Assembly: GCA_027012135.1 (NCBI GenBank)
Contig: JALUZF010000075.1
Coordinates: forward strand, 1-35,330
Source of the DNA: Gammaproteobacteria bacterium
GTDB taxonomy: Bacteria > Pseudomonadota > Gammaproteobacteria > GRL18
DNA length: 35,330 nucleotides
Direction: 5' to 3'
Position 1 is the first letter of the stretch, and each line of letters begins with the position of its first letter. Under the pieces are notes generated by a model. The model was given only the letters and a program-made list of their open reading frames with translations, did no database searches and was not told the DNA's origin. Below, piece by piece: positions 3,088 to 26,354 of this stretch. The position numbers were made by a program, and so were the translations under genes.

Positions 3088-3699
3088 CTATTTAGGTTTC
3101 ACATCCTTTTCTGTCATACAGGCATCCAGATCTTTTAGAATGCCGTTTTCCACACTATAGATCCAGCCATGCACTGACAACTCTTTACCGGCATTCCAGG
3201 CATCCTGAATAATGGTGGTATTACAGATATTGGTGACCTGTTCCCGCACATTCAGCTCACACAACAGATCCATTTTCTGTTCATGTTCCAGACCTTTAAA
3301 TTTTTCTTCATTAAAACGAATAACGTCCTTAATATGACGCAGCCAGTTATCAATCAGGCCATGCTCATGGTTCTCCAGAGCCGCCCGGACACCGCCGCAG
3401 CCATAATGACCGCAGACGATAATGTGCTTCACATTTAATACCTCAACCGCATACTGCAGTACAGACAGACAGTTCAGATCCGTATGTACTACAACATTGG
3501 CAATGTTACGGTGTACAAAAACTTCACCGGGTTCCAGGCGGGTGATCTGATTCGCCGGAACCCGGCTGTCTGAACAGCCTATCCACAGATATTCGGGGGA
3601 TTGCTGGTTAGACAGGCGGGAAAAAAATTCCGGGTCTCTCTGTTTAACAGAATCGGCCCAGGCACGGTTATTATCAAAAAGATGTTGTAAGCGCTTCAA
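3088..3699 (-). CDS. can: beta-carbonic anhydrase
   Basis: This beta-class carbonic anhydrase interconverts CO2 and bicarbonate in the cytosol. The zinc ligands are Cys42, His98 and Cys101 (WIGCSDSR and CGHYGCGG), with the Asp44-Arg46 dyad present. These positions equal those of E. coli Can when the protein starts at the TTG codon at 3699. The family N-terminus (LFDNNRAWADSVKQRDPEFF) follows directly from that codon. AGGA lies about 8 bases upstream, so TTG is the likely start. At 203 residues it is slightly shorter than E. coli Can. A mobile palindromic element ends 39 bases upstream of the start and may influence its expression. Confidence 0.95.
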   Translation of the reverse strand: MKRLQHLFDNNRAWADSVKQRDPEFFSRLSNQQSPEYLWIGCSDSRVPANQITRLEPGEVFVHRNIANVVVHTDLNCLSVLQYAVEVLNVKHIIVCGHYGCGGVRAALENHEHGLIDNWLRHIKDVIRFNEEKFKGLEHEQKMDLLCELNVREQVTNICNTTIIQDAWNAGKELSVHGWIYSVENGILKDLDACMTEKDVKPK

Positions 3700-3738
3700 T
3701 TTACTATTCCTGTATTATATAAACGTTTTATCAATTAT

Positions 3739-3915
3739 CCTAAATAAATCAGTTGAATCGTAGCGAGAATGATCAGAGTACTGGAGATACAAGGATTTAC
3801 AGGTTATTTTGGCTTTATTCGTAGCCACCCCTACGGGTGAAGTCAAAATGTTCTGGAAAGCCTTGTAGATTCAGTGCTATGGACATTCGCAGTAGGTTCA
3901 AATGATTTATTTAGG
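3739..3915. mobile_element. MITE-like palindromic insertion, copy 1
   Basis: This 177-bp non-coding element begins CCTAAATAAATCAGTTGAA and ends with its inverted repeat carrying one mismatch. It is flanked by the direct repeat ATTAT (3734-3738 and 3916-3920). The inner sequence is itself an imperfect palindrome, with ACAAGG...CCTTGT arms and an apex stem CGTAG/CTACG. A second copy lies at 26121-26296 and is nearly identical. There is no transposase, so mobilisation would be in trans. The CCTA-type ends and 5-bp AT-rich duplications resemble the IS1380 family (compare ISEcp1); that family link is inference. The element lies between the ygiQ stop and the carbonic anhydrase gene. Confidence 0.9.
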
Positions 3916-3929
3916 ATTATGGAGTTCTG

Positions 3930-6098
3930 TTATTTTCTACCAGATTTTCCAGTTCTTTTACCACCCTTTGTCCGCAATCTTTTTCCAGTCTTATATCTGG
4001 ACCGGCCGCTGCTTTTAAAGTTCACTGAATCGGGCATTTTGTTTTTTTCTGAGGGTACTAACTGATACTCACCATTGCCGATTAAATCATGCCGGCCCAT
4101 GGCTCTGAGCGCTGCTCTGATCAGCGGCCAGTTTTCTGGATCATGATAACGCAGCAATGCCTTATGCAGACGCCGGCTGCGCTCGCCTTTGGCTGTCAGA
4201 ACTTTTTCTGATTTATAGCTCAGTCTTTTTAAGGGATTACGCTCACTATGATACATAGCCGTTGCCGTTGCCATGGGTGAAGGATAGAAATTCTGTACCT
4301 GATCCAGACGAAACTTATTGGCTTTCAGCCACAGGGCCAGGTTGACCATATCCTCAATGGTTGAGCCGGGGTGTGCGGCAATAAAATACGGGATCAGATA
4401 CTGCTCTTTACCCGCTTCTTTAGAGAATTTTTCAAACATCTGCCTGAATTCATAATAGGAACTGATTTCCGGCTTCATCATTTTACTTAAAGTATTCTGC
4501 TCCGTATGTTCCGGCGCTATTTTAAGGTAACCGCCTACATGGTGGGTAACCAGTTCCTTAACATATTCCGGTGAGCGCACAGCCAGGTCATAACGCAGAC
4601 CGGAAGCAATAAAGACCTTCTTGATGCCGGGCAGTTTTCTGGCCCGCCGGTACAGATGCACCAACGGCTCATGATCCGTACTCATATGTTTACAGATGGT
4701 AGGATAGACACAGGACAGGCGGCGGCAGGCCGCTTCAATCTGTTTATCATCACAGGCCAGACGCCACATATTGGCAGTCGGACCACCTAAATCAGAGATA
4801 TAACCCTTAAATTCTGGCACATGATCGCGAATTTCTTCGATTTCCCGAATAATGGAATCTTCTGAACGGTTCTGGATCACCCGGCCTTCGTGTTCAGTAA
4901 TAGAGCAGAAAGTACAGCCGCCAAAACAGCCGCGCATTATGTTAATGGAAAAGCGGATCATCTCATAGGCGGGCATTTTTTTACCGGCATAATCCTTATG
5001 CGGCAGACGGGTATAGGGCAGCTCAAACAGCTGATCCAGTTCTTCTGTGGTTAACGGATACGGCGGTGGGTTTAACCAGATGTCTTTATTATCATGCCGC
5101 TGCACTAATGCCCGGGCATTACCGGGATTGGTTTCCAGATGCAGAACCCGGGACGCATGGGCATAGAGCACCGGATCGGCTTTAACTTTTTCATAGGACG
5201 GCAGGCGGATCACACAGCGTCCCCGATCCAGCGTTTTTACGATACTTTTTAAAGGTACAGTAATTTCTTCCTTAGCGGGAACTGAACCGTCTGTGCTGCA
5301 GGGTGTTTCATCAGTACGCTCATAAGGGCTGACCACAGCATCAACTTTACCTGGCCGGTCAACCCGGCTGGAGTCAATCTCCATCCAGCCTTTTCTCTCA
5401 TGCTTAACAATAAAAGCGGTACCGCGGATATTATCCAGCTTGTCTATGGCTTCTCCCCGGGACAGGCGGTGCGCAATTTCAGTGATCTGCCGTTCACCAT
5501 TGCCAAATACCAGTAAATCCGCTTTGGAATCAAATAATACTGAACGGCGTACCTTGTCTGACCAGTAATCATAATGGGCAATACGCCGCAAACTGGCTTC
5601 TATACCACCCACGATAACCGGTACATCTGACCAGGCTTCCCTGCAGCGCTGGGTATATACCGTTACTGCCCGATCAGGCCGTTTACCGCCAATATCATCA
5701 GGGGTGTAAGCATCATCATGGCGTAATTTACGATCTGCCGTATAACGGTTGATCATGGAGTCCATATTACCCGCAGTGACCCCGTAAAACAGGTTAGGCC
5801 TGCCCAGCTTTTTAAAATCCTCACAGCTGTTCCAGTCCGGCTGATCAATAATACCGACACGAAAGCCCTGAGACTCCAGCAGACGGCCGATTAAGGCCAT
5901 GCCGAAACTGGGGTGATCCACATAAGCATCCCCCGTCACCAGAATAATATCGCAGGAGTCCCAGCCCAGGGCCTGCATTTCTTCCGGAGTATGGGGCAGA
6001 TATTCCGACACGCCATAACATTCCGCCCAGTATTTGTCATAGGAGAAAATATTCTGTAACGGGGAACGCTTATTAGCTTTGCGGGCAACTTTGGACAT
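3930..6098 (-). CDS. ygiQ: YgiQ family radical SAM protein
   Basis: This 722-residue radical S-adenosylmethionine protein of the UPF0313/YgiQ family has no settled function. The [4Fe-4S]-binding CxxxCxxC motif is visible as CFGGCTFC at about residue 392, within the radical SAM barrel. The N-terminal region ([31 protein letters not shown]) is the B12-binding-like part characteristic of YgiQ, with [22 protein letters not shown] further on. The C-terminus is a basic Lys/Arg/Gly-rich tail, possibly for nucleic acid contact. It ends an apparent operon read from hemF. Its stop is 14 bases from the edge of the insertion element. Confidence 0.93.
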
Positions 6099-25567: not shown

Positions 25568-26119
25568 ATGACCCGTAACATATCTTTACCATCCTGTGGT
25601 TTCAGCCTGGTTGAAATGCTTATTGTGGCAGCCATAATTGGTATTTTAAGCAGTTATGCCCTGCCTTCTTTCAACAGGCTGGTAAACAGTAATCGCCAGA
25701 ACACGGTATTACTACAATTGTTTAGTCATCATCAACTGGCTCGCTCAGAAGCCATTAAACAGAACCAGTCCATTATTTTATGCAAATCAGACAACGGCCA
25801 GCAATGTACGCCTTCTGCTCACTGGCATAACGGCTGGATTGTATTTGCCGATAGGGACAACAATAAACAACTAAGTGGTACCGAGCTGCTGATTTACAGT
25901 TTCCAGAACCAAAATCCTTCTTTATCCTTAAGTTACAGAGGATTTGGGTCACATAATTATATCCGTTATTATCCCGATGGACGAAGCAGCACCAATGGCA
26001 GTTTTATTTTATGTACTCCACAGGGCGATATTACAGCCCGCAGCCTGATTATTTCCCGTACAGGAAAAGCCCGCCTGTCATCAAAAAATGCCAGTGGTGG
26101 TGCCCTGAAATGTGGTTAA
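25568..26119 (+). CDS. type IV pseudopilin, FimT/GspH family
   Basis: This 183-residue prepilin-like protein carries the class III leader and N-methylation motif GFSLVEMLIVAAIIGILSSYALPSF. Cleavage falls after Gly11 and the conserved Glu is at +5 of the mature form. The rest is a FimT/GspH-like beta domain with paired cysteines (ILCKSDNGQQC and FILCTPQG) and a C-terminal Cys close to the stop. Such minor pseudopilins prime type IV pilus or type II secretion filaments, and some FimT proteins bind DNA during uptake. No other pil genes lie nearby. Its TAA stop falls inside the target duplication of the inserted element that follows directly. Confidence 0.9.
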   Translation: MTRNISLPSCGFSLVEMLIVAAIIGILSSYALPSFNRLVNSNRQNTVLLQLFSHHQLARSEAIKQNQSIILCKSDNGQQCTPSAHWHNGWIVFADRDNNKQLSGTELLIYSFQNQNPSLSLSYRGFGSHNYIRYYPDGRSSTNGSFILCTPQGDITARSLIISRTGKARLSSKNASGGALKCG

Positions 26120-26120
26120 A

Positions 26121-26296
26121 CCTAAATAAATCAGTTGAATCGTAGCGAGAATGATCAGAGTGCTGAAGATACAAGGATTTACAGGTTATTTTGGCTTTAT
26201 TCGTACTCACAGTACGGGTGAAATCAAAATGTTCTGGAAAGCCTTGTAGATTCAGTGCTATGGACATTCACAGTAGGTTCAACTGATTTATTTAGG
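26121..26296. mobile_element. MITE-like palindromic insertion, copy 2
   Basis: This 176-bp copy has perfect 19-bp terminal inverted repeats (CCTAAATAAATCAGTTGAA and its complement). The flanking direct repeats are TTAAA (26116-26120 and 26297-26301). By eye it matches copy 1 (3739-3915) except for a handful of substitutions and a changed apex, where CGTAG/CTACG becomes CGTACT/AGTACG with pairing kept. No transposase or open frame of note lies inside. It lies one base after the pseudopilin stop codon. Confidence 0.92.
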
Positions 26297-26354
26297 TTAA
26301 AGTAACATGGATTAAATGTAAAATTTAAAAAACTCATATTTTAAAAAATGTTGC

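Follow-up and report, generated by a model that had tools for sequence, protein, structure and literature searches.

A palindromic insertion between ygiQ and can

The window, by which we mean the whole stretch of 35,330 nucleotides that was analysed, carries can (3088-3699) and ygiQ (3930-6098), both on the minus strand. The spacer between them holds an element of 177 bp (MITE copy 1, 3739-3915, plus strand, with the GTAGCGAGAATG arm first), which is palindromic over its full length and lies upstream of can, 39 bases from the called can start. The 5-mer ATTAT is found on both sides, at 3734-3738 and at 3916-3920. The terminal inverted repeats (TIRs) comprise 13 perfect bp, CCTAAATAAATCA, at 3739-3751 on the plus strand and at 3903-3915 on the minus strand, and are followed by an extension with mismatches. 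Within 3739-3915, no ORF reaches 80 aa. The fold of the element as single-stranded DNA spans its whole length, with a free energy of -44.8 kcal/mol compared with a mean of -13.5 for shuffled sequences (z -11.6). The original prediction, which described a non-coding 177-bp element with near-perfect TIRs, ATTAT on either side and an inner sequence folding back over its whole length, 39 bases upstream of the can start, is borne out on all of these points, coordinates included.

The assignment of the two ATTAT 5-mers as a target-site duplication (TSD) rests on the sequence itself and on the corresponding site in sister species. In the sister genomes G004, G003 and G001, in which YgiQ is 94-97 percent identical, the ygiQ-can spacer measures 50-51 bp and exhibits a single ATTAA or ATTTT in place of ATTAT-MITE-ATTAT. 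The spacer has grown from about 50 bp to 233 bp in the window. An effect of this lengthening on can expression, through a hairpin in a ygiQ-can transcript or a displaced promoter, would be hypothetical. A scan of the spacer gave one promoter-like site, with 1.1 expected, and no terminator-like sites.

A second copy, which was absent from the original prediction, is located at 26121-26296 (176 bp, plus strand), immediately 3' of a type IV pilin-like ORF (25568-26119). It is inserted at the stop codon of this ORF, which stays whole, as the left TSD (TTAAA, 26116-26120) includes the TAA stop; the right TSD, also TTAAA, is at 26297-26301. At the corresponding site in G004, the MITE is absent and the two flanking sequences meet with an overlap of 5 bp, no more and no less. 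As both sites are empty in sister species and retain one 5-mer there, both insertions in the window are recent and precise, and took place after the split from these species.

Copies, target sites and distribution

A search with the element, which had been proposed together with the original prediction, was carried out on the window's own draft assembly (325 contigs, 3.9 Mb). It yielded 26 complete copies, two further copies cut by contig ends, and a number of shortened derivatives. The complete copies fall into two sizes, 176-177 bp and about 203 bp, and 18 of the 26 exhibit exact 5-bp TSDs of differing sequence. When the right flanks were dealt at random, the mean number of exact TSDs was 4.0 and the maximum 11 in 10,000 trials. 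With the copies of related genomes included, exact TSDs are observed in 82 of 100 copies and follow the pattern xTxAx, with T always in second and A always in fourth position. The shortened derivatives (L030, L032, L033, L034, L037, L038 and L039; 37-79 bp) keep both ends, several of them with exact 5-bp duplications, and seem to have arisen from the palindrome by internal deletion. The shortest, L033, has 37 bp and is flanked by ATTAT on each side.

Insertion is precise and duplicates the target, it has taken place many times independently, and sister species retain empty sites. All of this is directly observed, and the element is a true mobile element, a MITE, on the basis of its copy number, its differing TSDs and its empty sites. 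Some insertions are nevertheless common by descent, since one copy of the window's genome (L002) and one copy of G004 (L053) share the same flank.

Nearly all MITE copies are intergenic. For the 20 copies of the window's genome with both neighbours called, 11 spacers are divergent, 9 tandem and none convergent, as counted with a rough gene caller, which did not detect the pilin-like ORF 5' of copy 2. This distribution, in which spacer length was uncontrolled, is in keeping with insertion favouring AT-rich DNA upstream of genes. With the same rough gene calls, copies in tandem spacers show no orientation bias (4 are sense and 5 antisense to their neighbours).

Among the 57 genomes searched, the MITE is present in all six genomes of its own genus and in 14 of the 16 genomes of a second genus from this family; it is absent from two more genera within the family and from 33 genomes of other families. 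As far as searched, its range is therefore limited to two gammaproteobacterial genera that belong to a single family. The named related contigs belong to uncultured Gammaproteobacteria MAGs and to 'Thiohalomonas sp. L138_T1'. Spread via plasmids, phages or viral contigs was also considered, and no match was found in plasmid, phage or viral-contig records.

An IS1380-like element as the candidate mobiliser

The original prediction proposed that an IS1380-family transposase elsewhere in the genome may mobilise the element. An IS1380-type mobiliser is supported, with a correction as to its location: sister genomes contain an IS1380-like element whose ends and TSDs agree with those of the MITE. 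In the window's own assembly, neither a PF13701 search nor the use of the sister transposase as query revealed PF13701 or any transposase related to it. The locus L085 of a sister genome contains an intact transposase ORF of 522 aa, which matches PF13701 (DDE_Tnp_1_4) with 69 bits (cut-off 34.7). By far its best NCBIfam match is NF033539 (IS1380; E 1.5e-35), with a score of 122.7 bits against an equivalog cut-off of 180 bits. As the score lies under this cut-off, we name the parent group IS1380-like, a divergent branch.

This transposase was found at 59 loci in a scan of the named genomes. Elements with both ends in place measure about 1.69 kb (1685-1716 bp in most), and their ends are of the CCT type, for example CCTAGAAAAATCAGTT / CCTAAAAAAATCAGTT. 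Several of these elements are flanked by exact, AT-rich 5-bp TSDs (ATGAT, TTGAA, TTTAA, TTTAT, ATTAA and TTAAA). The MITE and the IS1380-like elements of sister genomes and beyond have their ends (CCTAAAWAAATCAGTT, or CCTAAAAAAATCAGTT in the sister genomes) in common. In G012, the right end CCTAAAAAAATCAGTTAACCCTGCC is repeated in a multi-copy IS, and the same genome also has many MITEs. The MITE arm of G015 starts with CCTAAAAAAATCAGTTGAACC, and about 16 terminal bases are identical between this MITE and the right end of the IS. No clear match to the IS is seen for the interior of the MITE (about 125 bp), and by eye there is no likeness past about 25 bp, so that an origin of the MITE, which has IS ends, as a simple internal deletion is unsupported.

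With regard to G012 (JAIVER01, Thiohalomonas sp. L138_T1), we also observed 47 fragments of the IS1380-like transposase, many of them at contig ends. The IS1380-like element of this genome is a high-copy IS that was probably active recently.

Based on these observations, we consider that the copies form a family of non-autonomous palindromic MITEs, moved in trans by an IS1380-like transposase with matching ends, with a probability of about 0.9. The palindrome of 176-177 bp (also about 203 bp) inserts at AT-rich 5-bp xTxAx sites, mostly intergenic, and the insertion duplicates the 5-bp target. The PF13701 DDE transposase of the ~1.69-kb IS1380-like element would mobilise it in trans, probably by recognising the CCTAAAWAAATCAGTT ends.

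Another transposase could instead move the MITE, whose ends would then resemble those of the IS1380-like group by chance. Such a coincidence would have to extend to about 16 shared terminal bases, an equal TSD length and the same xTxAx target, and the other DDE_Tnp_1 loci in the window's genome lack these ends. The absence of an IS1380-like transposase from the window's genome speaks for this explanation, as does the young burst of copies in G015, where only broken IS1380-like copies are present. On balance, we regard it as improbable. The DDE_Tnp_1 loci C26, C234, C20 and C104 of the window's genome were each rejected as parent because their ends do not match; single element ends in this genome were likewise rejected as IS ends, none being paired at IS distance.

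Apparent transposase loss and age of the copies

Mobilisation by an IS1380-like transposase leads to the question of where that transposase is in the window's genome, in which it seems to have been lost or to be unassembled. As the draft assembly has no such transposase, the MITE looks stranded in this genome, and its copies are probably decaying. The divergence of the MITE copies to the genome consensus is 2.8 percent in the window's genome, 1.1 percent in G001 and 0.8 percent in G015. In G001, an IS1380-like copy is still present in frameshifted form, and the younger copies of this IS-bearing genome (1.1 versus 2.8 percent) fit a loss of the mobiliser in the window's genome. In G015, a near-complete genome of the same family, a pattern search for the MITE end gave 172 matches, which correspond to some 80 copies of a young burst, and all copies of the IS1380-like transposase found in this genome are broken. 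Such a combination does not fit neatly with the picture of a lost mobiliser.

Covariation and strand bias of the palindrome

Across 23 copies from different genera, compensatory changes keep the pair at 14 pairs of the palindrome. When the consensus was aligned, under symmetric scoring, to its reverse complement, the mismatches on the GTAGCGAG-first strand comprised 11 G.T and 1 A.C (two-sided binomial p about 0.006, on one shared history). In private changes of single copies, the split is nearer balance, with 41 versus 27. A wobble count on the energy-derived structure (727 G.T versus 30 A.C) was discarded as biased and was redone by this symmetric self-alignment. In alignment A1, tandem G.A mismatches between columns 48-49 and 130-131 are also kept across genera.

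As the complementary strand swaps the mismatches, an excess of G.T points either to one strand folding as RNA or single-stranded DNA, or to strand-biased mutation. Given the few positions and the one shared history, we treat the strand bias as a lead only. It is possible, though rather unlikely, that one strand, now or in the source copies, has been selected to fold as RNA or single-stranded DNA and that this aids the spread or tolerance of the MITE. If the bias is real, it provides a means of testing for selection on palindromes of this kind in their folded, single-stranded form.

The strong fold with its covariation between genera, the nearly exclusive intergenic location and the far larger number of G.T than A.C pairs on one strand would also be expected of a vertically inherited structural or regulatory repeat (of the REP, ERIC or RNA type) that is not a transposon product, which is a highly improbable reading, since both window copies have empty sites in sister species, the 5-bp duplications are exact yet differ, the flanks are unrelated and no Rfam match was found, the latter also removing a known RNA family as the identity of the MITE. 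The original prediction had named copies without duplications, or with conserved flanks, as the signs of vertical inheritance, and with the TSDs and flanks as found, this reading is already refuted as an account of the origin of the copies; a secondary function in the host may nevertheless exist.

Comparison with known elements

The Correia/NEMIS, ERIC and RUP elements are intergenic palindromes that are thought to have spread by transposition and may enter transcripts, as might be said of the MITE described here. Their sequences and ends are unlike those of the window MITE, and RUP and NEMIS duplicate TA.

The ISs of the IS1380 family, such as IS1247 and ISEcp1, exhibit a PF13701 transposase, a length of about 1.7 kb, imperfect short TIRs and a 5-bp duplication, and the parent group identified here matches all of these features. 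IS1247 of Paracoccus, for instance, has 1672 bp, inverted repeats of 16/13 and a direct repeat of 5 (PMC3281130). In contrast to these ISs, the element in the window is a 177-bp palindrome without a transposase. In a literature search, we found no paper in which a palindromic MITE was connected with an IS1380-type element.

The MITEs of Anabaena sp. 90 (PMC3542288) and of Thiomargarita nelsonii (PMC4853749), for both of which the parent IS was not identified, are alike by description: they are short, non-coding and multi-copy, with TIRs, a mostly intergenic location and a hairpin over the whole length. The elements described here constitute a MITE family that is new but of a known type, an ordinary genomic parasite for which the trail of evidence is unusually complete. 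Young copies are available in several MAGs and in one near-complete genome. Unlike these two published cases, the family described here has a likely parent family with matching ends and duplications, so that the likely parent IS, the ends and the target pattern have been identified together for a bacterial MITE family, where published MITE reports often come without a parent.
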